Assembly: GCA_016202645.1 (NCBI GenBank) | Contig: JACQOF010000127.1 | Location: forward strand, 135,714-181,296 | Direction of reading: 5' to 3' | Length of the DNA: 45,583 nucleotides | DNA from: a bacterium | GTDB taxonomy: Bacteria; Lindowbacteria; 2-12-FULL-62-27 | In this document: one piece after another, positions 1,115-43,768 of the stretch | Layout: the number at the start of each line of letters is the position of its first letter | How positions within the stretch are numbered: position 1 is the stretch's first letter | Notes under the pieces: model-generated | Told to the model about the DNA's origin: nothing | Databases searched by the model: none | What the model saw: the letters and a program-made list of their open reading frames with translations, nothing else | Translations under genes and position numbers: made by a program

Positions 1115-4100
1115 TCAACGCAACTTCCGAAGCCGCCGGCCGGCCACCTGCAGATCGAGCAGGTGCGGCGCCGTGTGAATTTCCGTCAGGCGGCGCGCGG
1201 CGGTCGGTGGAACGCCGAGATTCCGGATCCGCCGATGATACTCCCGGAAAATTTTCCGCTCCGCAACCGACAAAAGGGATTCGGCGATCGGCAGGAGACG
1301 GGTCAGATGGCCGAAGGTTTCAAGGGCCGCTGTGACGTCCTGTTGGGCATACTCCTTGAGGATCCAGCGCGTGATTTCAAACAGATTTTCCTCCAATTCG
1401 TCCAGCGTCTCGATCCGCCCCCTACTCTGAGTGAAGGAAATGCCATCCCTGGCATTTCCCTGAGTTGAGGATTCGGGGACAGACATCCTTGTCCGCGCCG
1501 CCGCCGAACGGATCGACTCGGCGCCGGTCAGGCGTTCCGCCACGAAATAGGCCCGGACCGCCCGGGACCAGGACACATCGCAATCCTCCGCGAGACGAAA
1601 CGCGGCGGTGAGGCCCGCCCGGTTAACAAAAGCGTTTGCGGCGGCGGCCGCGACGATCTGATCCGCGAGGGGATGCCCGGTCAGGCGCCGTCCGAACGAC
1701 CGGACGATCTTCCGGGGGAAATAGGCCTGAAGAAACGGTCCGAGAACCGGATCCGCCGAGAGAGACGTTTTCGGGGCAACATCCTCAAGCAGGTCCCGGT
1801 TGACGGCGAGTTTCACATAGGCGAGGAGAACCGCAAGTTCCGGCCGCCAGAAGGACTGGGATTTTTTCGCGCGCTCGGAAATTTCCCGGTCGGAAGGCAG
1901 GCCCTCGATTTCCCGGGACATGCCCTGCCGGTCCTTCAGAGCATCCATCAGTTTGGGATAGACCTCTATCTGTCGGAGGCTTCGGCGTTCCTCAAGAGAC
2001 AGGACCCGGCTCTGACTTTCATTGTCTTCGAGCACCCGCGCCGTGACCGGCCCCGTCAGACCCCTCAGCATGCGGCGGCCCCGGGCGGCCGGCACGCGCA
2101 TTTCCCGCAGGAGGATTTTCAAATTGACTTCGTGGTCCGACAGATCCACGCCCGCGGAATTATCGACCGCATCCGTGTTGATTCTGCCGCCCGCCCTCGC
2201 GTATTCGATCCGGGCCGCCTGGGTGAGCCCGAGATTTCCGCCCTCGCCGATGATTTTCGCGCGGACTTCCGATGCGTTGACCCGGACCCGGTCGTTGATC
2301 GGATCGCCGACGTCCGGATGCCGCTCTTCCGTCGCTTTGACGTAGGTGCCGATGCCGCCGTTATAGAGGAGATCAACGTCCATTTTCAAAATCGCCCGGA
2401 TCACGTCCTCCCCGCTGACTCCGTGGACCGGCACGCCCAGCAGGCGTGCGGCTTCCGGCGAGAGGTTGAGGCGTTTGGAGGACCGGAGAGAAACGCCGCC
2501 GCCCTTGGAGATGGCTTTGGTATCGTAGTCATTCCAGTTGGACTGCGGCATGCGAAACAGGCGGCGCCGCTCCAGCCAGGCTTTACGGGCGTTCGGGTTT
2601 GGATCGAGGAAGATGAATTTGTGGTTGAAGGCCGCAAGGAGTTTGAGAGTCCTTGTCTCCGGGCCCCAAATCATTCCGTTCCCGAAAACGTCGCCGGCCA
2701 TGTCTCCGATGGCGACGCAGGTCAAGGAACCCGCGTGCGCGCGCATGTTCAGATGGTGCCGCAGGCACACCCACACGCCGCGCGCCGTGATCCCGAGTTT
2801 TTTGTGGTCGTACCCGTCTTTCCCGCCGGACGCGAACGCGTCGCCAAGCCAGAATCCCGCCGAAAGGGAAATGTCGTTGGCAACGTCGCTGTATTTGGCC
2901 GTGCCCTTGTCGGCCGCCACGACCAGATACGGATCCGGCTCGTCGTGAATGACGCACCCGACGGGCTGAATGACACGACCGCCAATCATGTTGTCCGTCA
3001 GATCAAGAAGCGTGCGGATGAACCGCCGGTATCCCTCCACCGCGTCCCGCGGTGTACCGCCGCGCTTGATGACAAAACCGCCTTTCGCTCCCACGGGAAC
3101 GATCACCGCATTCTTGACCATCTGCGTTTTCATGAGCCCCAGAACTTCCGTCCGATAATCATCCCGGCGGTCCGACAGCCGGATCCCGCCGCGCGCGATC
3201 AGCCCGCCCCTGAGGTGGATGCCTTCGACGTGCGAGTCCTGCACAAAAATCTCAAAGAGCGGCACCGGCCGCGGCATCGCGTGGATGTCGGCGCTGCGGA
3301 TTTTCATGCCGAGAGTCTGCCGGATCGGCGTCTGAAAATAATTGGTCCGGACCGTCGCCCGGATCGCGTCAGCCACGAGGCGTAGAATGCGGTCTTCCAG
3401 AAGGTCATCCACGCTGTTCAAGGCCTCCTCGAGCAGATCGACCTGATCCGATTCCCGCTTTTCGCGATGGACGGACCGGGGCGGACCGAAAGCCAGATCG
3501 AAGCGGGCGATGAACAGGTCGGTCAGGATCCGCGCCACCGCGGGATTTTCCACGAGGGCCGCATCGATCGACCGGAGTGTGTAGGCCGGGACGATCTGGT
3601 GGAGATAATTCCGATAAAGTCTCAGCATCAGCACTTCCCGGAGCTGGAGTCCGGCCAGGAGCGTGAGGGAACTGAGGGCGTCGCACTCGATCCGGCCGTC
3701 CAGCGATTCGACGATGCTCTCGGAGAGAATGGCGCCCAGCCGCTCGACATCAATCTTTCCGGCGGCGCTCTGGAGCCGGAAGGTGTGGATGAAGGCCATC
3801 GGCAGATCTCCCGCGGACGCGGGGGGGCGGACCGAATTGGACATTTCATCAACCACCCGGAATCCATGATGGGTCAAAACCGGCATGATGTCCGACAGGA
3901 CCAGTTTGGTGCGCAGGTGATACAGCTTGAGCCGCGAGCAGTCGGGGTCGGCCTTGGAGTTGAAGATATCCACGTGGATGTCGCCCGGATCCTTGAGTTT
4001 TTCGAGCATGAGGATGTCATGTTGGGCGCCCTGGGGCGGGGTGTGGTTATGGAACTCGACGCTGAAGGCCGTCCCATATTTTTTGAAGAGCCGATCGGCC

Positions 4101-5692
4101 ACGCGCGGGCCCGCCGAGGCCGCCAGGACCTCCCGCAGGCGGTCCGGCCAGGTCTTGCAGATTTCCGCGAGTTCCCGCTCCAGTTCTGTAAAAGACTTGC
4201 CGGCCGGAGTCTTGCGCCCGGTGACGCAGAAAAAATATAACCGCGCGAAATCGCCGCCCTCGGTTCCCATCGACAGCGAATAGTCGATGGACGCCGCCTC
4301 CAGACGCCGCCGCAGGACCGCCTCCATTCTGGCTCGCGCGTCGGTGTTGAACTTCTCCTTCGGCATCACCACCATCACCGATATCCCGCGTCCCCGGAGG
4401 TCCGGCCGGAAGGTCGCCTTGAAATCCAACTTGCTCTGGGCAACCAGGGCCGTCCGGATTTCCCGGCGAAGATCATCCACGGACGCCCCGAAGAGGAGGT
4501 CCTTGGGATAGCCCGCGAAAATCCCGTAGATCTCCCGGAAATCATGCGAATGCGCCTGCACCCCCTCCGCCTGGATCACCGCTTCGAATTTTTTCCGGAG
4601 TATCGGAATGTCGGTCGATGGAAGACCCTCGACGCGGTTCGTGAACAACCCCTGGATCCGCCGCTCGCCGGCCAGCCGCCCGGCGCCGTCAAAAATTTTC
4701 TGGCCGATGTAGGCCATCGGCTCCCGGCGGTAGATCGGCGACAGCGCCGATGTCTGCGCGACAACGAGGGAGGCACCCTGAAGTTTCAGGCCGCGGCGCA
4801 GGGACGGGACCACCCGGGTCAGAGGCACCGGCCGGTAAAACCGCGAGATGCGTTCGGCCCGGAGAATGCCAAGCCCGCTGCCGCGCCGGAGAGAAAAATA
4901 TTTCCGGCCGCGCTTGTTCGCAAGATTGTATTCCCGATATCCAAGCAGGATGAAATTCCCGTCCAGAAGCCACGTGAGAAACTCCGCTTCTTCACGCCGG
5001 GCGTCAGGGTCTGTATCCGAACGCTTTTCGATATCCGAACGCATCGCCACCGTCGCCGCCCTCATCCGGTCAAAATCCCGAACGACGTGGCGGATGTCGG
5101 CGTAAATAGACTCCAGCGACGTCTCAATCTGCCGGAGCCGCCTCGCATCCTCCACCCGGTCGACTTCCACATGGATCAGGGACTGTCCGGGTTCGCCCGG
5201 CCCGATCTGAACCGGCGTTATCCCGCCTCCGCGTTCGACGCGGATCGGAAGAATGGGATGGACAAGATGCACGACGTTGAGTCCCAGCCCGCGGAGACAC
5301 TCCCGGACGCTCGCGACATAAAATGGACCGTCCCTGGCCGAAATCTGCAGGACCGTCCGATCCGATGAAAATCCGGCCGGCGTCAGAGACGCCGGCACTT
5401 GGGGCCTCGGAGAGGCTGATCCGTCCTTTTTTTCCTCGGGATTGAATACCGCGACCCCAACACCCGTTCGCAGACTGAGCGCCATGACCCGGCGGGCGCT
5501 GTGGAGGATGGACGCCAGGTCCCCGGCGCTGTAGCCGAGCACAAAACCATCTGGTGCGTTTTTAAAGAAATGCGGCGCCACCGTCAACAGTTCACGGCCC
5601 GGGCGGCCCCCCCGGCTGAGCAACCGGCGAACCTCCCGCAACCGGCCGGCCACCGGCGGAAAACGAATCGTTACTGCGGTCGGGACTGACAT
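1115..5692 (-). CDS. gdhB: NAD-specific glutamate dehydrogenase, giant type
   Basis: This protein of about 1525 residues belongs to the bacterial NAD-glutamate dehydrogenase family (the 1500-1650 residue type known from Streptomyces and Pseudomonas). It oxidises glutamate to 2-oxoglutarate and ammonia in the cytoplasm. The catalytic block is clear: ARGGIRLSDRRDDYRTEVLG near residue 835, PVGAKGGFVIK near 870 with the catalytic Lys region, DPYLVVAADKGTAKYSDVAN, then ASGGKDGYDHKKLGITARG. The long N-terminal part is the family's regulatory region. I prefer the ATG at 5692, behind a weak GAGAA; a GTG at 5704 would add four residues. Two palindromic insertions sit in non-conserved linkers: a family A repeat near residues 93-109 and a GC-poorer hairpin near residue 1418. 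Neither breaks the frame. No neighbour is functionally linked. The gdhB symbol follows Pseudomonas usage. Confidence 0.93.
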   Translation of the reverse strand: MSVPTAVTIRFPPVAGRLREVRRLLSRGGRPGRELLTVAPHFFKNAPDGFVLGYSAGDLASILHSARRVMALSLRTGVGVAVFNPEEKKDGSASPRPQVPASLTPAGFSSDRTVLQISARDGPFYVASVRECLRGLGLNVVHLVHPILPIRVERGGGITPVQIGPGEPGQSLIHVEVDRVEDARRLRQIETSLESIYADIRHVVRDFDRMRAATVAMRSDIEKRSDTDPDARREEAEFLTWLLDGNFILLGYREYNLANKRGRKYFSLRRGSGLGILRAERISRFYRPVPLTRVVPSLRRGLKLQGASLVVAQTSALSPIYRREPMAYIGQKIFDGAGRLAGERRIQGLFTNRVEGLPSTDIPILRKKFEAVIQAEGVQAHSHDFREIYGIFAGYPKDLLFGASVDDLRREIRTALVAQSKLDFKATFRPDLRGRGISVMVVMPKEKFNTDARARMEAVLRRRLEAASIDYSLSMGTEGGDFARLYFFCVTGRKTPAGKSFTELERELAEICKTWPDRLREVLAASAGPRVADRLFKKYGTAFSVEFHNHTPPQGAQHDILMLEKLKDPGDIHVDIFNSKADPDCSRLKLYHLRTKLVLSDIMPVLTHHGFRVVDEMSNSVRPPASAGDLPMAFIHTFRLQSAAGKIDVERLGAILSESIVESLDGRIECDALSSLTLLAGLQLREVLMLRLYRNYLHQIVPAYTLRSIDAALVENPAVARILTDLFIARFDLAFGPPRSVHREKRESDQVDLLEEALNSVDDLLEDRILRLVADAIRATVRTNYFQTPIRQTLGMKIRSADIHAMPRPVPLFEIFVQDSHVEGIHLRGGLIARGGIRLSDRRDDYRTEVLGLMKTQMVKNAVIVPVGAKGGFVIKRGGTPRDAVEGYRRFIRTLLDLTDNMIGGRVIQPVGCVIHDEPDPYLVVAADKGTAKYSDVANDISLSAGFWLGDAFASGGKDGYDHKKLGITARGVWVCLRHHLNMRAHAGSLTCVAIGDMAGDVFGNGMIWGPETRTLKLLAAFNHKFIFLDPNPNARKAWLERRRLFRMPQSNWNDYDTKAISKGGGVSLRSSKRLNLSPEAARLLGVPVHGVSGEDVIRAILKMDVDLLYNGGIGTYVKATEERHPDVGDPINDRVRVNASEVRAKIIGEGGNLGLTQAARIEYARAGGRINTDAVDNSAGVDLSDHEVNLKILLREMRVPAARGRRMLRGLTGPVTARVLEDNESQSRVLSLEERRSLRQIEVYPKLMDALKDRQGMSREIEGLPSDREISERAKKSQSFWRPELAVLLAYVKLAVNRDLLEDVAPKTSLSADPVLGPFLQAYFPRKIVRSFGRRLTGHPLADQIVAAAAANAFVNRAGLTAAFRLAEDCDVSWSRAVRAYFVAERLTGAESIRSAAARTRMSVPESSTQGNARDGISFTQSRGRIETLDELEENLFEITRWILKEYAQQDVTAALETFGHLTRLLPIAESLLSVAERKIFREYHRRIRNLGVPPTAARRLTEIHTAPHLLDLQVAGRRLRKLR
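1436..1459. repeat. Perfect 10-bp inverted repeat inside the glutamate dehydrogenase gene
   Basis: GGAAATGCCA and TGGCATTTCC face each other across a 4-base loop. CTGAGT occurs on both sides, at about 1426-1431 and 1460-1465. It encodes a Ser/Thr/Gly-rich segment (ESSTQGNARDGISF) in the C-terminal helical region, which looks like an inserted linker. Confidence 0.6.
5376..5426 (+). repeat. Dispersed palindromic repeat, family A, copy 1 (in the glutamate dehydrogenase gene)
   Basis: The plus strand carries GGCCGGCGTCAGAGACGCCG, followed by GCACTTGGGGCCTCGGAGAG and GCTGATCCG. The first part is a hairpin with CCGGCGTC/GACGCCGG arms. It is antisense to the gene and encodes about 17 residues (SPRPQVPASLTPAG) in an N-terminal linker. 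It matches copies at 32661, 37380 and 38871, in a frame different from all of them. Confidence 0.8.
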
Positions 5693-7110: not shown

Positions 7111-8605
7111 AACCGGCCTGGACCTTTCCGCCTGTCAGCTGGCAGACGCGATCCGCGATGGGGAACTGAGGGCGGCGGACGTCTGTGGAACGTTTCTCGA
7201 ACATATCCGGGAACAGGATCCAAAACTTCAGGCTTTCGTCACCGTGCTGGAGGACGACGCGATGCGGCAGGCCGAGTCGGTCGACCGGGACCACTCCCAC
7301 GCGGGCGCGGCGCTGCTTCGCGGCGTGCCGATCGCGCTCAAGGACAACCTCTGCACGCGAGGTGTTCCGACGACCTGCTCCTCAAAAATTCTGGAGGGGT
7401 TCGTGCCGCCCTACGACGCGACGGTGGTGGCGCGCCTTCGGGGCGTGACGCCGTTTCTCGGCAAGACCAACCTCGACGAGTTCGCGATGGGATCGTCCAC
7501 CGAAAATTCCGCCCTCTTTGAAACCCGCAACCCGCACGACCCCGGGTGTGTTCCGGGCGGTTCTTCCGGCGGATCCGCCGCCGCCGTCGCTTCCGGCATG
7601 GCGCCCCTCGCGCTCGGGTCCGACACCGGCGGATCGATCCGCCAGCCCGCGGCCTTTTGCGGAGTTGTCGGCCTGAAACCGACCTATGGCCGCGTGTCCC
7701 GCTACGGCCTCATCGCATTCGCCTCCTCTCTCGACCAGATCGGCCCCTTCGCCCGCACGGCCGAGGACGCGGCGCTTCTCCTCGACGCCATCGCCGGACC
7801 CGACCCGCGCGACGCCACGTGTCTGGCGACAGCCGCGCCGTCTTGCCGCGCAGCGTTATCGAAACCGTTTGAAAAATTGCGAGTGGGCCTGCCCCGCGAA
7901 TATTTTCAGGAGGGTCTTTCGGCGCCGGTTGCGCAGGCGCTGGCGGCGACGCGCCAGTCCCTGCAGGACCTCGGATGCTCGATGGTGGATGTGTCTCTCC
8001 CGCACACCGATTACGCCGTGCCGACCTACTACATCCTCGCGCCCGCCGAAGCCTCCTCGAACCTCGCGCGGTATGATGGCGTGCAGTACGGACTCCGGGC
8101 GCCGGCCGGGAACTTGATCGAACAGTATCTGAACACGAGATCCGCGGGATTCGGCCGCGAGGTCAAACGCCGGATCATGCTTGGCACCTACGCGCTCTCT
8201 TCCGGCTATTATGACGCGTACTATCTCAAGGCCCTGAAAGTCCGCCGGCTGATTCATGACGATTTTTCCAAAGCCTTCGCCCAGGCCGACGTGCTTCTCA
8301 CGCCCACCACGCCGACGGCCGCGTTCCGGTTCGGCGAAAAAGTTTCCGACCCTCTGCAGATGTATCTCTCGGACATCTTCACCATCTCCGCCAACCTCGC
8401 GGGCCTGCCCGCCCTATCCTTCCCCTGCGGAATGGACGGTCATCTCCCCATCGGCGCGCAACTCATCGGTCCCGCGCTTTCCGAAGCGCGGCTCCTGCGG
8501 ATCGTCCACGAGTACCAGAAGGACACCAACTGGCACCTTCGGAGACCCCAGTCCATCCTGCGAAGCCCCCAGAAGCGCAAGCGTACTCCAGGCGAAGCAG
8601 GATGA
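7103..8605 (+). CDS. gatA: Glutamyl-tRNA(Gln) amidotransferase subunit A
   Basis: The 500-residue amidase-signature subunit releases ammonia from glutamine for transamidation. The Ser-cisSer-Lys triad is visible: the Lys of PIALKDNL (near 80), the Ser in GGSSGGSAAAVASG (near 154) and the Ser in GSDTGGSIRQPAA (near 178). The ATG at 7103 lies within the end of gatC and gives the expected MSKTGLDLSACQLADAI start. The stop overlaps the gatB start as ATGA. The last 15 or so residues (RSPQKRKRTPGEAG) are not conserved in the family. They come from a short repeat-like sequence shared with the 5' end of rpe (family E). Confidence 0.97.
   Translation: MSKTGLDLSACQLADAIRDGELRAADVCGTFLEHIREQDPKLQAFVTVLEDDAMRQAESVDRDHSHAGAALLRGVPIALKDNLCTRGVPTTCSSKILEGFVPPYDATVVARLRGVTPFLGKTNLDEFAMGSSTENSALFETRNPHDPGCVPGGSSGGSAAAVASGMAPLALGSDTGGSIRQPAAFCGVVGLKPTYGRVSRYGLIAFASSLDQIGPFARTAEDAALLLDAIAGPDPRDATCLATAAPSCRAALSKPFEKLRVGLPREYFQEGLSAPVAQALAATRQSLQDLGCSMVDVSLPHTDYAVPTYYILAPAEASSNLARYDGVQYGLRAPAGNLIEQYLNTRSAGFGREVKRRIMLGTYALSSGYYDAYYLKALKVRRLIHDDFSKAFAQADVLLTPTTPTAAFRFGEKVSDPLQMYLSDIFTISANLAGLPALSFPCGMDGHLPIGAQLIGPALSEARLLRIVHEYQKDTNWHLRRPQSILRSPQKRKRTPGEAG
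8555..8582 (+). repeat. Short shared motif, family E, copy 1 (gatA 3' end)
   Basis: ATCCTGCGAAGCCCCCAGAA, then GCGCAAGC, matches the sense strand of the 5' end of rpe (42147-42174) at about 24 of 28 positions. Both encode I-L-R-S-P-Q. A nearby GCGAAGCAGGA (8592-8602) could pair with its TCCTGCGAAG. Confidence 0.45.
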
Positions 8606-12168: not shown

Positions 12169-12287
12169 GCCTCTCTGCTTCCTCCTTCCCTCTATATAAT
12201 ATATATATCGTCCGGTTCCCTCCCCGGGATGAGCACAGCGGGGGCAGTCAACTTGACAATATTTGTCTGCTGGGAGACCATCCGATC
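12169..12287. promoter_or_regulatory. Divergent promoter region, AT-rich core
   Basis: This region separates the divergent M23 peptidase and calpain-like genes. It contains a TATAAT at 12195-12200 within an alternating A/T run, and a TTGACA at 12254-12259 with no good -10 partner. It probably holds both promoters, but I cannot pin them down. Confidence 0.4.
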
Positions 12288-13991
12288 ATGCCTTTACCAT
12301 CCACATCGCGTGCATCCGCAGGTGACGCTTCCATCCGGCTGGCGTCTGAAATCCTCCTCAGAAAGCGAGATCAACCCCGCCTGACCAGCGGCGAAATCGC
12401 TTTTAAAAAACTCGATGGGCCTTTGTATGTCGACGGTGTCCGCCCCACTGACCCCCGGCAGGGATTTATAGGCGATTGCTATCTGTTGTGCGCCTTTTCG
12501 GCGCTCGCCCGATCACGGCCTCAGCTCGTCGAATCGATGATCCACTCGAACGGCGACGGAATTTATGACATCGCCTTTTACCGGAGGCTGGGTGATGGAA
12601 AATTCCAGCCGGAAACGGTCAGGATAGACGGCAAAATTCCTGTCACAGCCAAAGACGGCCATCCCATCTATGTGCGGACTCTTCCGGATGTTCGCGGCCA
12701 GATGGAAATATGGCCGATGATCGCCGAAAAGGCCTTTGCGGCGTGGAAAGGCGGCTATCACATCATGGGTGAGGGCGGCGCCGTGGAGGACACGCTTGAA
12801 GAACTCACCGGCAAGCCCACCCGCATGCTCTATGTTTCCGAACATCATCCGGAAGTTCTTTGGAAGATGCTGGCGCTGGCAACGCGCGAAAAGTGGCCAA
12901 CCACGGTCTGCACGTGGGGGCGTGTTGAGCGACCGGGCCTGGATGAACTGGGGATGCATCCAAACCACATTCACATTTTTCTTGGCGTCCATGCCCTGCG
13001 CGGCCGGCGAATCGTCTGGCTGCGCGACCCCTTTGACAAACCCACGTGCGGCAAATTGAATCTCCCGGATCCGGACGGCGTCTTCACTCTGTCCTGGGAA
13101 AATTTTCTGGCCTATTTCGGCGAAATTCACATCAACGGCCGGCAAATTTTTGAAATCCCCTCTCCGCCTCATCCTTCGGTCACCATCATGCGGGCCCTGG
13201 AGCGCTCCTATGTATTCCACGCGCTTGATCTGAAGACGCGCCGGACTCTGGCCAGGGATTTCAAGCGCGCCCGGATACCGGCCAACGAATACATTTTCAC
13301 GGCCGGCTCCGCGCCGGATTTTTACTATCTCATCCAATCCGGCGCGGCCGGTGTCGAAGTCCGCGTCAAAGGCTCGGCCAGGAAGCGGCGGGTGGCCGTT
13401 TTGAATGCCGGCGACCAATTCGGAGAAATGGCCTTGATCAACAACTCGCCCCGGGCGGCGGATGTGAAAACCATCACCCCTCTTGTGGTCTACAAGATGG
13501 CCGCGAAGAAATTTCAAAAGTGGATTTCATCCCGGCCCGATATGGTCAGCCGCATTCGCCGCCGGTTCGAGCTGCAGCTCTGGATGCAGAAATGGTCGAA
13601 GCGCCCCATCACGTCGATGTCGCTCGACATGCTGCTCGCCGCCGGGAAAGAGAAATTATACCGGAAGGGCGAAATCGTGTTCCGGCGGGGCGACGTTGCG
13701 GACAGTTTTTATGTAATTCTGGACGGCAGGATCGAGGTTTTTACGAAGGCAGGTCAATCTCTCAAACGAATTAAAATTTTGCACAGCGGCGACATTTTCG
13801 GCGAAGGCGCGGCGCTGAAACGCATGCCGCGGTCGGCGTGGGTGCGGGCGGTGGCCCCATCCAAACTCCTGCGGCTGGACATCGGCGTTGCGGAAAATCT
13901 AATGGAGAGTTTTGAGGTCGTGCAGCGCCAGCTCGAATTTATCGCGCGCCGACGATTCAGACGCCTCAAAAAAGTAAGGGGGCCGCATTGA
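12288..13991 (+). CDS. Calpain-like cysteine protease fused to two cyclic-nucleotide-binding domains
   Basis: In this 567-residue protein, residues 45-290 resemble the calpain (peptidase C2) core. RQGFIGDCYLLCAFSALA holds oxyanion Gln58 and nucleophile Cys64. NHIHIFLGV offers His227, and RIVWLRDPF stands where calpains have RNPWG, so the third triad residue is Asp247 rather than Asn. Residues about 305-430 and 445-560 are two cyclic-nucleotide-binding domains. Their phosphate-binding cassettes are FGEMALINNSPRAADV (Glu380, Arg389) and FGEGAALKRMPRSAWV (Glu506, Arg515), so both probably bind ligand. No signal peptide or membrane helix is seen, and there is no calcium-binding EF-hand. The next gene starts 13 bases after the stop. 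The architecture suggests a cytoplasmic protease switched by a cyclic nucleotide. The substrate is unknown. Confidence 0.8.
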   Translation: MPLPSTSRASAGDASIRLASEILLRKRDQPRLTSGEIAFKKLDGPLYVDGVRPTDPRQGFIGDCYLLCAFSALARSRPQLVESMIHSNGDGIYDIAFYRRLGDGKFQPETVRIDGKIPVTAKDGHPIYVRTLPDVRGQMEIWPMIAEKAFAAWKGGYHIMGEGGAVEDTLEELTGKPTRMLYVSEHHPEVLWKMLALATREKWPTTVCTWGRVERPGLDELGMHPNHIHIFLGVHALRGRRIVWLRDPFDKPTCGKLNLPDPDGVFTLSWENFLAYFGEIHINGRQIFEIPSPPHPSVTIMRALERSYVFHALDLKTRRTLARDFKRARIPANEYIFTAGSAPDFYYLIQSGAAGVEVRVKGSARKRRVAVLNAGDQFGEMALINNSPRAADVKTITPLVVYKMAAKKFQKWISSRPDMVSRIRRRFELQLWMQKWSKRPITSMSLDMLLAAGKEKLYRKGEIVFRRGDVADSFYVILDGRIEVFTKAGQSLKRIKILHSGDIFGEGAALKRMPRSAWVRAVAPSKLLRLDIGVAENLMESFEVVQRQLEFIARRRFRRLKKVRGPH

Positions 13992-14004
13992 GGTGATATC
14001 CTCC

Positions 14005-15267
14005 ATGGAAATCGCGGCGAGATTTGGAACGGACGGGGCGAGTCCACGCGCCGTCCACGATGTCGTCAAAGATCTTCCGATATACGCCGACCGGCCGTTT
14101 TGTCTCACCGACGGAACGGATGGATTTTTGGACGCCCTGCCGTTTATGACGAAGGCCGACTTGCGGCGTTATTTCCCTCACGGGTTCCTGCGGCCGGGAA
14201 CATCATTCGCGTCCCTGATTGCTTCGAAGAAAGTGGAAGTCGTTCGGACGTCCGGCACGAGCAGCGACCGTCTGCAGGTTCTCTGGGATGCCGACTGGTG
14301 GGAACGCCAGGAGGCGGCCGCGCTGAAGTCGCATGCCTACATTGGGCCGCGCATGACAGGCGAGTACACGGAGGCGGTGCTCACCACGCCCCTCTGTTCG
14401 GAGAGCGTATGCAAAACGGGGCCGGCCACCATGGAGGAACGGCGCGTCGACAATCTGCTTTTTCTCAATACCCAGCATGATCCCAGCCGCTGGACCCACT
14501 CCGACCTCGCGCGGATGGCCGACGAGATCGACCGGTTCCGGCCCGCCGCCATCGAGGCTGATCCGGTGTATCTTGCGGTTCTGGCCAGACATCTCCGGGA
14601 CAGCCGCCGGCCCGTTTTCAAATTCGATTGGATCATCCTGACCTATGAATTTGTTTCGGCGATTGACAAAACCGCGATCCGCGGCCTGTTTGGCTGTCCG
14701 GTTTTTGAATTCTACGGCCTGACCGAAGCCGGCGTTTTTTTTCTGGAGTGCCCCAAAGGCCGGCATCATTTCTGCGGCAGTGACTCGGTCGTCGAAGTTT
14801 TTCGCGTGACCGAAGGGGATGACGGATGGCGGGGGTTGCCGGTCAACACGGGCGAGGCGGTGGTCACCACATGGGGAAATTCCGCCGCGCCGCTGCTCCG
14901 GTATCGGACGGGCGACCTCGTGACGGTGGGAGTGGATCGGTGCGCCTGCGGCGCTCCCGGGCCGACAGTGCTCAGTTTTGAAGGCCGAATCCGGGATGTG
15001 ATCAAACTTCCGGATGGAAAAGTTTTCACGCCCCGGCTGATTGACGATACGCTTTTTGGCATCCCGGGTCTGGCCCAATACGTCTGTGTTCAGGAAGGCC
15101 CGGACTCCATGCGGGTGGATTATGTTTCCGACGGCCCGCGCGATCCCGGCGGCGAAATCGTATCCCAGCTGCATTCCATCTTGGGGACCGCGCGCGTCGC
15201 CGCAAGATCGGCGCCGTTTATCACGCCGGAGCAGTCCGGAAAATACAGAACGGCCGTGCCGCTGTGA
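14005..15267 (+). CDS. PaaK-like adenylate-forming enzyme (phenylacetate-CoA ligase family)
   Basis: This 420-residue member of the ANL superfamily activates a carboxylate as an acyl-adenylate and usually passes it to a thiol. Motifs occur in order: VRTSGTSSDR (phosphate loop), FEFYGLTEAG, YRTGDL, FEGRIRDVIKLPDGKVFTP (hinge) and SGKYRTAVPL with the catalytic Lys. A CACGAPGP segment resembles the cysteine pair of PaaK-type enzymes. The ATG at 14005 is preceded by GAGGTGA, which favours it over the GTG at 13993. It lies 13 bases after the calpain-cyclic-nucleotide gene and overlaps the SufS-like gene by one base, so the three are probably co-transcribed. The substrate cannot be read from the sequence; no phenylacetate pathway gene is near. 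Confidence 0.85.
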   Translation: MEIAARFGTDGASPRAVHDVVKDLPIYADRPFCLTDGTDGFLDALPFMTKADLRRYFPHGFLRPGTSFASLIASKKVEVVRTSGTSSDRLQVLWDADWWERQEAAALKSHAYIGPRMTGEYTEAVLTTPLCSESVCKTGPATMEERRVDNLLFLNTQHDPSRWTHSDLARMADEIDRFRPAAIEADPVYLAVLARHLRDSRRPVFKFDWIILTYEFVSAIDKTAIRGLFGCPVFEFYGLTEAGVFFLECPKGRHHFCGSDSVVEVFRVTEGDDGWRGLPVNTGEAVVTTWGNSAAPLLRYRTGDLVTVGVDRCACGAPGPTVLSFEGRIRDVIKLPDGKVFTPRLIDDTLFGIPGLAQYVCVQEGPDSMRVDYVSDGPRDPGGEIVSQLHSILGTARVAARSAPFITPEQSGKYRTAVPL

Positions 15268-16448
15268 TGTCAATCCGTTCCGAATTCCCGATTTTGAACC
15301 AGACCATCCACGGCATGCCGGTGACTTACCTCGACAGCGCATCGACCAGTCTCAAGCCCCGCTGTGTGCTGGAGGCCATTCGAAAATATTACGAAGAGGC
15401 GACGGCCAACGTTCATCGCTCGACCCATCTTTTTGGCGAGACCGCTACACAAGGCTACGAGGACGCGCGAAACAGAGCCGCCCATTTTCTGAACGCGCGA
15501 CCGGACGAAATCGTTTTTGTCCGCAACACCACGGAGGCCGTGAACCTCGTCGCCCTTAGCCTGCGGCTTGAAAAAGACGACGAGATCCTCATCACGCCCC
15601 TCGAACACCACTCCAACCAGCTGCCGTGGGCCTCGAAAGTCAAAGTGGTCTACGTGCCTCTAAGGCCGGACGGCCTGCCCGATTCCTCGCGCCTCGAGGA
15701 TCTCGTGACGCCGAGGACAAAACTGATGGGACTCGGGCTTCTTTCCAACGTCACCGGCACGCGCGGCGACGTCGAAGTCTGGCGGGAAGTGGCGTCGAAG
15801 CGCGGCATCCCATTTCTTTTGGATGCGTCGCAGGCCGGCGGGCACATGCCGATGGATGTCCAAAAGCTGGGGTGCGATTTTCTGGCTTTTTCGGGCCACA
15901 AGGTTTGCGGCCCGTCCGGGATCGGCGTGCTCTGGGGAAAACGCAGCTGGCTGGAACAGATGGCCCCCCCTTTTCTGGGCGGCGGGATGGTGCACGAAAG
16001 CCGGTTGGACGGATACACGGTCAAAGAGGTCCCATGGTGTTTTGAAGCCGGTACGCCGAACGTTGAGGGCGCGATGGGCCTGGCCGCCGCGCTGGAGTTT
16101 CTTGAAAAAATCGGAATGAAAAACGTGGAAGATCATTCGAAAGAACTGGGACGACAGATGTATGACGGATTAAAAGGCAATAGGCAGCTCCGCCTCGTGG
16201 CCGATCAAACTTCGGAACGATACGGCATCGTCAGTTTTTTTGTCGACATCCCCGGCCTTTCCGCCGAAGCCTTCGGACGGATCATGGCGGACACGTACGG
16301 CATTCTCCTCAGCGCCGGAAAACATTGCACGCACCCCTACCACGACCTGATCGGATTTTCCGCGACGGTCCGCGCGTCCACGCACGTGTACACGACGGAG
16401 GACGAGGTCAACCGATTTTTGGATGCGGTCCGGGAAATTACCGGATAG
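15267..16448 (+). CDS. SufS/CsdA-like cysteine desulfurase (class V aminotransferase)
   Basis: This 393-residue PLP enzyme probably removes sulfur from cysteine to give alanine and an enzyme persulfide. Seen are DSASTSLKPR at the start, ANVHRSTHLFGETATQGYEDAR, EHHSNQLPW, the PLP Lys in FLAFSGHKVCGPSGIGVLWG, and GKHCTHPYHD, which supplies the active-site Cys at the group II position. The stop of the PaaK-like gene overlaps its ATG (TGATG), indicating tight coupling. No SufU, SufE, SufB or other Fe-S assembly gene is adjacent, which is unusual for SufS. A dedicated sulfur-transfer role alongside the adenylating enzyme is possible. The 3' end overlaps the convergent ATP-grasp gene by 11 bases. 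Confidence 0.87.
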   Translation: MSIRSEFPILNQTIHGMPVTYLDSASTSLKPRCVLEAIRKYYEEATANVHRSTHLFGETATQGYEDARNRAAHFLNARPDEIVFVRNTTEAVNLVALSLRLEKDDEILITPLEHHSNQLPWASKVKVVYVPLRPDGLPDSSRLEDLVTPRTKLMGLGLLSNVTGTRGDVEVWREVASKRGIPFLLDASQAGGHMPMDVQKLGCDFLAFSGHKVCGPSGIGVLWGKRSWLEQMAPPFLGGGMVHESRLDGYTVKEVPWCFEAGTPNVEGAMGLAAALEFLEKIGMKNVEDHSKELGRQMYDGLKGNRQLRLVADQTSERYGIVSFFVDIPGLSAEAFGRIMADTYGILLSAGKHCTHPYHDLIGFSATVRASTHVYTTEDEVNRFLDAVREITG

Positions 16449-22471: not shown

Positions 22472-24991
22472 GTGGCTGAGGAGACCGCGAAGGGCGACGG
22501 CAAAGCCGCGGCGATGCCGAAACCCGAGAAGCTCAAGTTCGAGCCCGGCGACGTCATCTGTCTGCAGGGCGAAGCGAGCAAGGAGCTCTATCTTTTAAAC
22601 ACCGGCAAGCTCGAAATCCTCGTCTGCGACCAGATGCCGCCGCCCAAGTCGAAGGACGAGCTGATCCGCAAATCAAGCCGGGTCGCCACCATCGAAACGC
22701 CCGGGCCCTTCGGCGAACTCGCGTTTCTCCTTCAGCTCCCCCGCACCGCGTCGGTCCGGGTCATCGAGAACACCGAAGTCACCAAATTCGCCGCCGTCGA
22801 CGGCGCGTTCCAGGGCATGATCGCCCGCACACCGAAACTCGGCCTCGACTTTTCGAGAAACATCCTCAAACGATACACCATATCCCTTCAGGACGTCTCC
22901 GAAGCCAACCGCCTCCTCAAGATTTTTCAGAGGCTGTACGACAATTCCTGCCTGATCCTCGCCATTCACGCCGCGGAGGCTCTTGAAAAACAAACCATGT
23001 TTTCCCAGGTGAAATTTGACGACAAAAATTCCAAGGCCTTCCAGCGCGGCCAGAAGATATACCAGATTCTGTCGAAAGCCGACCAACTCCCCAAGAAAAT
23101 CGGGCCGACGATTCTCGAGAAGGACCATTCGGACGCCATCGGCGTCAAGTACGGCGGCAAGACCGTCCGCACGGCCGAGATCCGGGAGGCTGATTTTTTC
23201 AGGAAGCTCATGTCCGACGTTGAAGGCCATTTTGCATCCATGATTGAAACCGACCCGTCCCTCGTCGTCTTCATCGCCCAGCGCCTCGCGTCCAAGCTCC
23301 CCGCCGTGAACGCCCTGTTTCTCTCGCAGAAGGACGCCGTCGACGACGCCGTGGAGGCCTACATCGGAAAATCGAACAGCATCCTGTCCGATCTGCTGGA
23401 ATTGACTGAAGCCGTTTCCAAAAAGGAGGACCTGGCCGCCCTGAAGGCGCCGCTGGACGAGCTTCTCCACAGCATCTGCCGCAGCGCCCGGCCCATGGTG
23501 TCCATCTACGAAGACCTCTGGGGCGTGCCGCCGCCGCGCCTGTCAGGAAGTTTCCGGAAAGTGGTGACGGAGATGGAAAAGAAAGAGGAGGAGGACCGCA
23601 AAACCGCCGAGCGGGAGGCGGCGGCGCGGGAAGCCGCCGCGGCCGGGAAGGGCGGGACGGTCATCAAGGACACGCTCCCGCTTTTCATGAAGAGTTTCAA
23701 CGTGGAGGACGACGTCAAGACCAAGCTCGAGGCCGTCATCGAGGCCTACAAGGGACTCGAGAACAAATTAGACTTTACGGGAGACGCGCGGAAGGTCAAG
23801 AACGAGCTTTCGGCCAACTACTGGAAAGTCTACCGGAACGCCGTCCGGTCCTATTTCGAAAATCCCGCCGCGTTCCCCGCCGAGGGAAAATTGCTCCTAC
23901 GCTACGGCCTCCTCGACGAGCGGATGATCGAGCCGGACGACCTGGACACCCTGCCCAAAATTCCCTACACCCAGATCAGCGACGATTTTCCGATCTATTT
24001 CGCCGACGAGTGGCTCCACCGGGTGTTCGAAGGCAAGGAAGGCCCGAGTTCGACCGAACTCGGGGAGACGTTTCAGGAAGTGGTCAAGCGCGGCGAGGAC
24101 GAAGTCAAAGTCTACACGGACGACGCCACGTTCGGCCTTGTCGCCTACGAGATCGACCACCTCGCCAAGAGCGCCGTCCGGATGTGCGCCGGCGGCCCCG
24201 CATTCAATTTCCCGATCCTCTGCAAGGATTTCTGCGGCACGGGTCTTGAAAAGAAAATCCTGACCAAGGAAAAACTCGCGGCGGCCGTGGCCGACATTCT
24301 CAAGCTCGATTACCGCGTCTTCGTGCGGGACGTGAAGGTGGTGGCGCAGGACAAAGCCTATTTCGTCGACAAGGAAGTCCGGCCGAACTTCATTTTACTG
24401 CCCTCCTCCGGGTCTCAGGCCATTTGCTGGCAGGAACTGGACGGCCGGAGCAAGGAAACCCGCGCGCGGATCGTCCTGCCGACGCTTCTGCAGGGCGACC
24501 TCAAAGACATCCTGATGGACGTCTTCGCCAAGTTCCGCTGGAACCTCGGCAAGACCATCGCCGGCTACAACTGGGCGAACCCCGCCGAGGGCGGCCTCAC
24601 GGGGGCGTACTTCGACTACGTGAGCTTCTACAAGAAAAACACGGAACTCACCGAGGACGAAAAGGAAAAGTGCAAGGAGATGTTCGACAAGTACCCAGCC
24701 GTCGGCGACAAGTTCGCCGCGAACTACAAGGAATGGATGACCTTCGAAAAGGAGGGCGTCCAGAAGCTCAACAACATCTGCCGCGGGATCTTTTTCAAGT
24801 TCGTCCCGTTCGCGCGGCGGATCCGGGAAGGCCTCGGCAAATTCCCGGCCTTTGAAAAGCATCTCTACAAGGACAACAATCTCCGTACCAAACAAATCCA
24901 GGAACTCGAAACGCGCATCAAGGCCTTCGAGAACGACGGCGTGGAGGTCCCCCAGGAGTTCCGGGACGCGATCGAGTTTATGAAGAAATAA
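22472..24991 (+). CDS. Large cyclic-nucleotide-binding protein of unknown function
   Basis: In this 839-residue protein, residues about 18-125 form a cyclic-nucleotide-binding domain with cassette FGELAFLLQLPRTASVRV (Glu82, Arg91 present). The remaining 700 residues match no family I recognise. They are mostly helical and charged, with a Lys/Glu/Ala-rich hinge near 365-395 (EKKEEEDRKTAEREAAAREA). After the hinge comes a long globular region with distinctive stretches such as PYTQISDDFPIYFADEWLHR, NFILLPSSGSQAICWQELDG and KFRWNLGKTIAGYNWANP. No membrane segment or signal peptide is seen. The start is GTG at 22472, without a strong Shine-Dalgarno. The segment after the domain (RYTISLQDVSEANRLLKIFQ) recalls that in the 332-residue protein at 42770-43768, hinting at a paralogous core. 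Likely a cytoplasmic sensor or effector. Confidence 0.85.
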   Translation: MAEETAKGDGKAAAMPKPEKLKFEPGDVICLQGEASKELYLLNTGKLEILVCDQMPPPKSKDELIRKSSRVATIETPGPFGELAFLLQLPRTASVRVIENTEVTKFAAVDGAFQGMIARTPKLGLDFSRNILKRYTISLQDVSEANRLLKIFQRLYDNSCLILAIHAAEALEKQTMFSQVKFDDKNSKAFQRGQKIYQILSKADQLPKKIGPTILEKDHSDAIGVKYGGKTVRTAEIREADFFRKLMSDVEGHFASMIETDPSLVVFIAQRLASKLPAVNALFLSQKDAVDDAVEAYIGKSNSILSDLLELTEAVSKKEDLAALKAPLDELLHSICRSARPMVSIYEDLWGVPPPRLSGSFRKVVTEMEKKEEEDRKTAEREAAAREAAAAGKGGTVIKDTLPLFMKSFNVEDDVKTKLEAVIEAYKGLENKLDFTGDARKVKNELSANYWKVYRNAVRSYFENPAAFPAEGKLLLRYGLLDERMIEPDDLDTLPKIPYTQISDDFPIYFADEWLHRVFEGKEGPSSTELGETFQEVVKRGEDEVKVYTDDATFGLVAYEIDHLAKSAVRMCAGGPAFNFPILCKDFCGTGLEKKILTKEKLAAAVADILKLDYRVFVRDVKVVAQDKAYFVDKEVRPNFILLPSSGSQAICWQELDGRSKETRARIVLPTLLQGDLKDILMDVFAKFRWNLGKTIAGYNWANPAEGGLTGAYFDYVSFYKKNTELTEDEKEKCKEMFDKYPAVGDKFAANYKEWMTFEKEGVQKLNNICRGIFFKFVPFARRIREGLGKFPAFEKHLYKDNNLRTKQIQELETRIKAFENDGVEVPQEFRDAIEFMKK

Positions 24992-42769: not shown

Positions 42770-43768
42770 CTATGACTTCAAGTATTCCTTCCACTTGTCC
42801 TGCAGGCGGCCGATGTACTCGCGGTCCAGCTCGAATCGTTTGGCGACGGAGGCGAGGGGCATATTTTTGTGGCCGGGTTCCTCCGCCAGGGCTTTAACCG
42901 AGCGGTCGAACTCGGTGATCTGCCGGCGGAAATCGTCGAGACTGCCCTTGGCGTATTTGCCGAGCATGAGTTCCTTGAGGATCTGCTCGCGGGCGTCGAA
43001 GGGAAGGGTTTCCTCGATGAGAATGAGTTCGGACTCAAGTCTGGCCATGCCAAGGGACTGGCAGGCGACCAGCTGGTCGGACATGTCCAGGATTTTCCGG
43101 ACGACGTCCCGCGCGGCGGTCTGAAGATCGGGAAATGTTTCCGGCCTCTGGACCCGGAACGTCTTCAGGTCCATCGGAGCGAAAGACTTGAATCGGTTCG
43201 TCACGCCCGCCTGGAACTTGTCGGACACGCCCGTTGATCGGGCGGCTTTGTGAAGATTCGAAAAATCCTCGACGGCGTCCCGCCGGGTCAGGTTCTGGGC
43301 AAGCATCACCTCGACGTCGCGCCGGATGTTTTTCATGTCGGTAAACTGAAGTTTCTTTTCCGTCATTTTTTTCTCGGAAATGAGCACCGCCAGGATCTTG
43401 AGGCATTCGTCCAGAAAGGCGTTGTGGTACTCGGTGACCCGGTTCCGAATCAGTTCGAACCGTTCGGACAGGCCGCGCAGGAATTTAACGCCATGATCGC
43501 TGTTCAGGCTGAGTTTGGCCATGAAGGATCCGCCGTCGTAGATGTCCAGCACGCAGGGTGTTTTGGCGATGAGGGTCATGCTTCGAGGCTGGCCGAGAAC
43601 CACGCCGATTTCTCCCACAAAGCTCAACGCGCCGACTTGGCCGACGATTACACTGCCCTTCAAAATCAGGATCGTGCCGGTTCGGATCCAATACAGTTCC
43701 GCCGACGGGTCGCCCTCTTTGCAGAGTTTCTCGCCCTGCCCAAGACTGCGGCTTCTGGCCAGATCCAC
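42770..43768 (-). CDS. Cyclic-nucleotide-binding protein, unknown output
   Basis: In this 332-residue protein, residues about 8-95 form a cyclic-nucleotide-binding domain with cassette VGEIGVVLGQPRSMTL (Glu53, Arg62). The rest is helical and charged and holds no recognised DNA-binding helix-turn-helix of the CRP type. The end, PLASVAKRFELDREYIGRLQ, looks helix-turn-helix-like but is atypical. The segment after the domain (LSERFELIRNRVTEYHNAFL) resembles the corresponding part of the 839-residue protein at 22472-24991. The start is GTG at 43768, 13 bases after the gmk stop, so it belongs to the yicC-gmk unit where rpoZ is often found. Function is unknown; a transcription factor or a scaffold is possible. 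Confidence 0.85.
   Translation of the reverse strand: MDLARSRSLGQGEKLCKEGDPSAELYWIRTGTILILKGSVIVGQVGALSFVGEIGVVLGQPRSMTLIAKTPCVLDIYDGGSFMAKLSLNSDHGVKFLRGLSERFELIRNRVTEYHNAFLDECLKILAVLISEKKMTEKKLQFTDMKNIRRDVEVMLAQNLTRRDAVEDFSNLHKAARSTGVSDKFQAGVTNRFKSFAPMDLKTFRVQRPETFPDLQTAARDVVRKILDMSDQLVACQSLGMARLESELILIEETLPFDAREQILKELMLGKYAKGSLDDFRRQITEFDRSVKALAEEPGHKNMPLASVAKRFELDREYIGRLQDKWKEYLKS

Follow-up and report, generated by a model that had tools for sequence, protein, structure and literature searches.

A bacterial gene predicted to join a calpain-type protease to two cyclic-nucleotide-binding domains

The regulation of bacterial calpains is essentially unknown, and as of a 2015 survey only one bacterial calpain had received any biochemical characterization (PMC4631099). 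We analyzed a stretch of 45,583 nucleotides from a bacterial draft genome (the window), in which one gene raises the question of whether a calpain can be controlled by sensors of its own, which would offer a directly testable switch. The gene covers positions 12288..13991 (+) and encodes 567 amino acids; the open reading frame, coordinates and length given in the initial annotation agreed with the ORF list. The sequence GGGAG (12272-12276, +) is located 11 bases before the ATG.

The Peptidase_C2 profile of Pfam (cut-off 23.8 bits) matched residues 46-249 of the window protein with 75.6 bits (E 4.6e-21), and two stretches following this domain matched the cNMP_binding profile (131.8 bits, E 8.7e-39). 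These scores are far above chance level. The calpain-type (peptidase C2) domain was delimited to residues 43-289 (12414..13154, +), cNMP-binding domain (CNBD) A to about residues 309-430 (13212..13577, +) and CNBD B to about residues 443-555 (13614..13952, +). By sequence, the nearest solved structures were calpain-1 for the first half and the regulatory parts of PKG and PKA for the second half. The window protein showed no hydrophobic segment resembling a signal peptide or a membrane span (highest 19-residue Kyte-Doolittle mean 0.88), and neither a calpain III (C2L) domain nor EF hands were matched in it by Pfam. It was the only Peptidase_C2 match in its own 2.9-Mb draft genome, which is 82% complete and in which the gene sits on a 181-kb contig.

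The domain composition and the fold were both computed here. An AlphaFold2 model of the full-length protein, built with six sequences, had a mean pLDDT of 54, with most of the C2 part at 70-90 and a poorly modeled CNBD half. All of its 37 best Foldseek matches (37/37) were nevertheless calpain structures, with a top Z of about 20. When residues 37-289 were modeled alone, the mean pLDDT was 81 and the pTM 0.82, and the model matched the core of human calpain-3 (6bjd_A) with a Z of 25.6 (231 residues superposed, 2.1 A). The Z range against calpain protease cores was 20-26, compared to 11 or less for other papain-like enzymes. The initial annotation had named an unrelated fold of residues 40-290 as the outcome that would speak against a protease; it was the calpain core that was matched. 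According to these models, the predicted fold is the calpain/papain-like fold of family C2. The proposed combination of a calpain-type protease with two CNBDs was thus confirmed by the Pfam matches and by the model of the C2 domain, and the window protein is a member of family C2 with a domain arrangement that is new to the family.

Both CNBDs carry an intact phosphate-binding cassette. It reads FGEMALINNSPRAA in domain A (residues 378-391, 13419-13460) and FGEGAALKRMPRSA in domain B (residues 504-517, 13797-13838), where it is followed by WVRA. The invariant phosphate-binding Glu and Arg were present in both (FGE...R.A), as the initial annotation had stated. With the profile match and the Glu/Arg pair, both domains are cNMP-binding domains (PF00027) with predicted nucleotide binding. 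We take the PRAA of domain A to resemble that of the cAMP-selective PKA, and the RSAWVRA of domain B to resemble the corresponding segment of E. coli CRP. Domain B has Ala509 at a position that is usually, as we assume, taken by a larger hydrophobic residue in such cassettes. A CNBD may also act constitutively or fail to bind cyclic nucleotides. Both points count against gating by a nucleotide.

A supply of cyclic nucleotide is likely, since the same genome contains 11 class III cyclase domains (Guanylate_cyc matches) and 12 CNBD places, and two further CNBD genes lie in the window. These are located at 22472-24991 (+; 839 aa, E 1.9e-9) and at 42770-43768 (-; 332 aa, E 1.2e-11), which fits a genome rich in cyclic-nucleotide signaling. 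In a genome of the same family (G001), a 693-aa ORF resembling a membrane protein (L004:1405-3483, -) also ends in tandem CNBDs; its N-terminal part contains hydrophobic segments and has no Pfam name. Judging from this second occurrence, the tandem CNBDs appear to form a sensor module that is reused within the lineage.

Calpains are usually controlled by calcium, with which the initial annotation had contrasted this protein. We aligned the window protein to calpain-1 and tallied the alignment columns in two sets of rows: bacterial homologues aligned to an iterated profile, counted where a row has a letter in the column, and a set of 91 rows comprising the window protein and homologues from the phylum of genome G030. 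The transfer of the Ca2+ site 1 definition to calpain-1 numbering is our assumption. The definition itself was taken from the literature (PMC4631099). The ligand positions of site 1 are occupied by Val48, Gly50 and Asp55 (12429..12452, +) and by Glu140 as the fourth (12705-12707, +). Asp55 was found in 89/91 and Glu140 in 86/91 rows of the second set, that of the G030 phylum. The first ligand of site 2 that follows RNPWG falls on position 253, where 84/91 of these rows have Glu and the window protein has Thr. Site 1 seems to be kept and site 2 to be impaired. The contrast with calcium regulation therefore held for the replaced Glu of site 2 and did not hold for site 1, which is preserved in sequence. 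By these features, the window protein is not a classical Ca2+ calpain: the site-2 Glu, calpain III and the EF hands are all absent. It is suggestive that site 2 seems impaired in a protein that also carries CNBDs, although this is seen in a single sequence.

We consider it fairly probable that the gene encodes a cytoplasmic protease of the calpain family that is gated by a cyclic nucleotide, possibly together with Ca2+. Gating of this kind is plausible because the cassettes are intact and the genome is rich in cyclases; ligand, gating and substrate are what we infer. The protein would be a soluble cytoplasmic C2 cysteine endopeptidase with the C-terminal CNBD pair as its regulatory part. The ligand of the CNBD pair would be a 3',5'-cyclic mononucleotide produced by one or more class III cyclases of the same genome; cAMP is the likeliest candidate, as judged from the PRAA and the CRP-like RSAW of the cassettes. 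Its binding could move the CNBD helices and thereby release or align the two subdomains of the protease, which would then perform limited cleavage of a host protein. Since V48, G50, D55 and E140 are preserved, Ca2+ may remain an input, possibly as a second required one. For the more specific version, in which the calpain is switched directly by a cyclic mononucleotide and the loss of site 2 was accompanied by the gain of a PKA-like CNBD pair, we see about an even chance. It is unlikely that Ca2+ at site 1 is still the switch and that the CNBD pair only tethers, dimerizes or localizes the calpain without gating it. The four kept site-1 positions support such a role of Ca2+; the Thr in place of the widely conserved site-2 Glu argues against it, as do the two intact cassettes, which would be superfluous if the pair were only a tether.

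The predicted active site bears on whether the protein is a protease at all. Gln58 at the oxyanion-hole position (12459..12461, +) and the predicted nucleophile Cys64 (12477..12479, +) both fall within QGFIGDCYLLCAF. Each was found in 80/80 rows of the first set and 91/91 rows of the second, which substantiated their earlier assignment to a calpain-type motif. His227 (12966..12968, +), already named as a candidate, is the predicted catalytic histidine (H in 79/79 and 91/91 rows); the aligned His is 227 and not 229. These three residues are essentially invariant among about 170 bacterial calpains. Asp247 (13026..13028, +) lies within LRDPF and aligned to the column of the catalytic Asn, in agreement with the initial reading of RDPF. 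Asp occurred in this column in 4/78 and 2/91 rows, the window protein counted. The four carriers among the 78 rows were the window protein, L092 and the pair of L002 proteins, and nearly all other rows have Asn; in the G030-phylum set 89/91 rows have Asn. The L002 locus (2880-4876), on a Deltaproteobacteria (Myxococcota) contig, consists of two adjacent C2 genes that both have Asp for the catalytic Asn. The Trp that comes after Asn in RNPW is replaced by Phe in the window protein. As far as can be read from the alignment, the protein has the Gln, Cys, His and Asn-or-Asp of family C2, with Asp247 as a presumably tolerated variant.

The protease could be weak or dead, because Thr replaces the site-2 Glu and Phe replaces the Trp after Asn/Asp. 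An inactive calpain homologue would act as a binding or scaffold protein that responds to cNMP. The exchanges of Asn to Asp and of Trp to Phe are compatible with this, and non-peptidase homologues made up 29/267 of the calpains in a survey (PMC4631099). The same survey gives PalB (yeast PalB/Rim13) as an example of a functional enzyme with Asp in place of Asn. Given also that Gln58, Cys64 and His227 are kept and that the predicted fold is complete, we regard an inactive homologue as rather improbable.

The initial annotation had also raised the possibility of an antiphage effector. Downstream of the protease gene follow an AMP-ligase-like gene of the PaaK/DVU_1553 type (14005..15267, +), whose ATG lies 13 bases past the protease stop, with an earlier GTG at 13993, and a gene for a SufS-family cysteine desulfurase (15264..16448, +), whose start overlaps the end of the ligase gene. 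The three genes probably share one transcript. For the AMP-ligase-like gene no match was found in two genomes of the same family, and matches elsewhere were only generic. A cysteine desulfurase was found near a C2 gene in 1/14 loci, as a weak match. The surroundings are mostly housekeeping genes (ilvH, leuA, dnaE, accA and similar), and by our own reading of the ORF list gatA/gatB-like genes are also nearby. ARAGORN called a tRNA-SeC at 7620-7712 (-) of the window, within the span of a gatA-like gene that runs in the other direction; the call is probably a false positive.

No cyclase domain was present in the window, the nearest on the contig being about 87 kb away, and no defense genes were detected in the window, where the PADLOC matches reflected generic CNBD or cysteine-desulfurase similarity. 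A role as Pycsar effector was rejected, as no PycC-type cyclase is adjacent and the PADLOC similarity is generic only. More broadly, a nucleotide-activated antiphage effector of the Pycsar or CBASS kind is very improbable. The CNBDs resemble those of PycTIR, and signal-activated defense proteases such as CalpL and SAVED-CHAT do exist (PMC11417357); against this stand the housekeeping context without adjacent cyclase or defense neighbors and the phage records, in which no relative was found.

To find the same architecture elsewhere, we performed PF00648 scans of the gene's own genome, a domain-wide sample of relatives, and the phyla of G265, G332, G323, G090 and G030. None of the roughly 170 bacterial C2 homologues whose sequences were examined had a CNBD. 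A tandem-CNBD profile matched the window protein alone across all C2 sets; from the CNBD set that served as a control, it recovered 31 ORFs. In most bacterial homologues examined, C2 is at or near the C terminus: 90 homologues from the G030 phylum have it there and lack a CNBD, and in 60 extra homologues the chain ends ≤19 residues past the C2 domain. In the window protein C2 comes first and is followed by 279 residues. Many of the G030-phylum calpains are proteins of about 600 aa in which the C-terminal C2 domain is preceded by an N-terminal half without assignment. Genomes carrying calpains were rare overall (6/386). The G030 phylum had calpain-family genes in 63/195 genomes, with up to eight per genome (L135-L224), and the G323 phylum had C2 matches in 90/386 genomes (59 above cut-off). 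The scan of genome contigs gave one distantly related locus, where two C2 genes lie next to each other and neither has a CNBD. In a tree of C2 domains the window protein was on a long branch, grouped weakly with L002. Plasmid records gave three weak C2 matches. Three C2-type proteins, in which no CNBD was seen, were on contigs filed as viral (L117:2596-3684, L118:1384-3825, L116:1-981); their viral origin is uncertain, and two of these contigs are about 200 kb long.

Cyclic-nucleotide domains are unmentioned in an analysis of 267 representative calpains (PMC4631099), in a cyanobacterial survey (PMC9380684) and in PMC3563603. We found no description of a C2-CNBD fusion in the literature, and an undescribed UniProt/InterPro entry may exist. 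The earlier statement that no protein with such an architecture has been described thus stood, within the literature and about 170 C2 homologues, and the fusion is unique in our sample, as one gene in one draft genome. An assembly artefact that fused two genes might be suggested by the single occurrence in a draft genome and by the GC3 of 0.63 in the C2 part versus 0.72 in the CNBD part. It is hardly credible for one stop-free open frame on a 181-kb contig, with contiguous coding through the linker and a start signal at the C2 end, and neither half departs from the local GC3 range of 0.63-0.80.

If gating by cyclic nucleotides holds true, it would show that calcium is not the only second messenger able to drive a calpain core; the protein would be the first cNMP-gated calpain and might serve as a protease tool triggered by cAMP. 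With bacterial C2 peptidases such as Tpr of Porphyromonas gingivalis (PMC4631099) it shares the predicted fold and the Gln/Cys/His positions, and with some of them Ca2+ site 1; it differs by the N-terminal position of C2 before two CNBDs, Asp for Asn, and the missing site-2 Glu. With the cyclic-oligoadenylate-activated CalpL and SAVED-CHAT (PMC11417357), the window protein would have in common that a nucleotide messenger gates a protease within one chain, which is proposed here for the window protein. CalpL is non-homologous despite the similar name, having a Lon protease and a SAVED domain in a CRISPR context; neither Pfam nor PADLOC matched these two domains in the window protein. By the features tested, the window protein is neither a Pycsar nor a CalpL protein. 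CNBDs that serve as signal input within one chain are also known from the tandem CNBDs of the PKA regulatory subunit and PKG and from the bacterial CNBD-enzyme fusions Pat acetyltransferase and the EAL protein Bd1971. Unlike in all of these, and with no described example found, the output domain of the window protein is a calpain-type protease.
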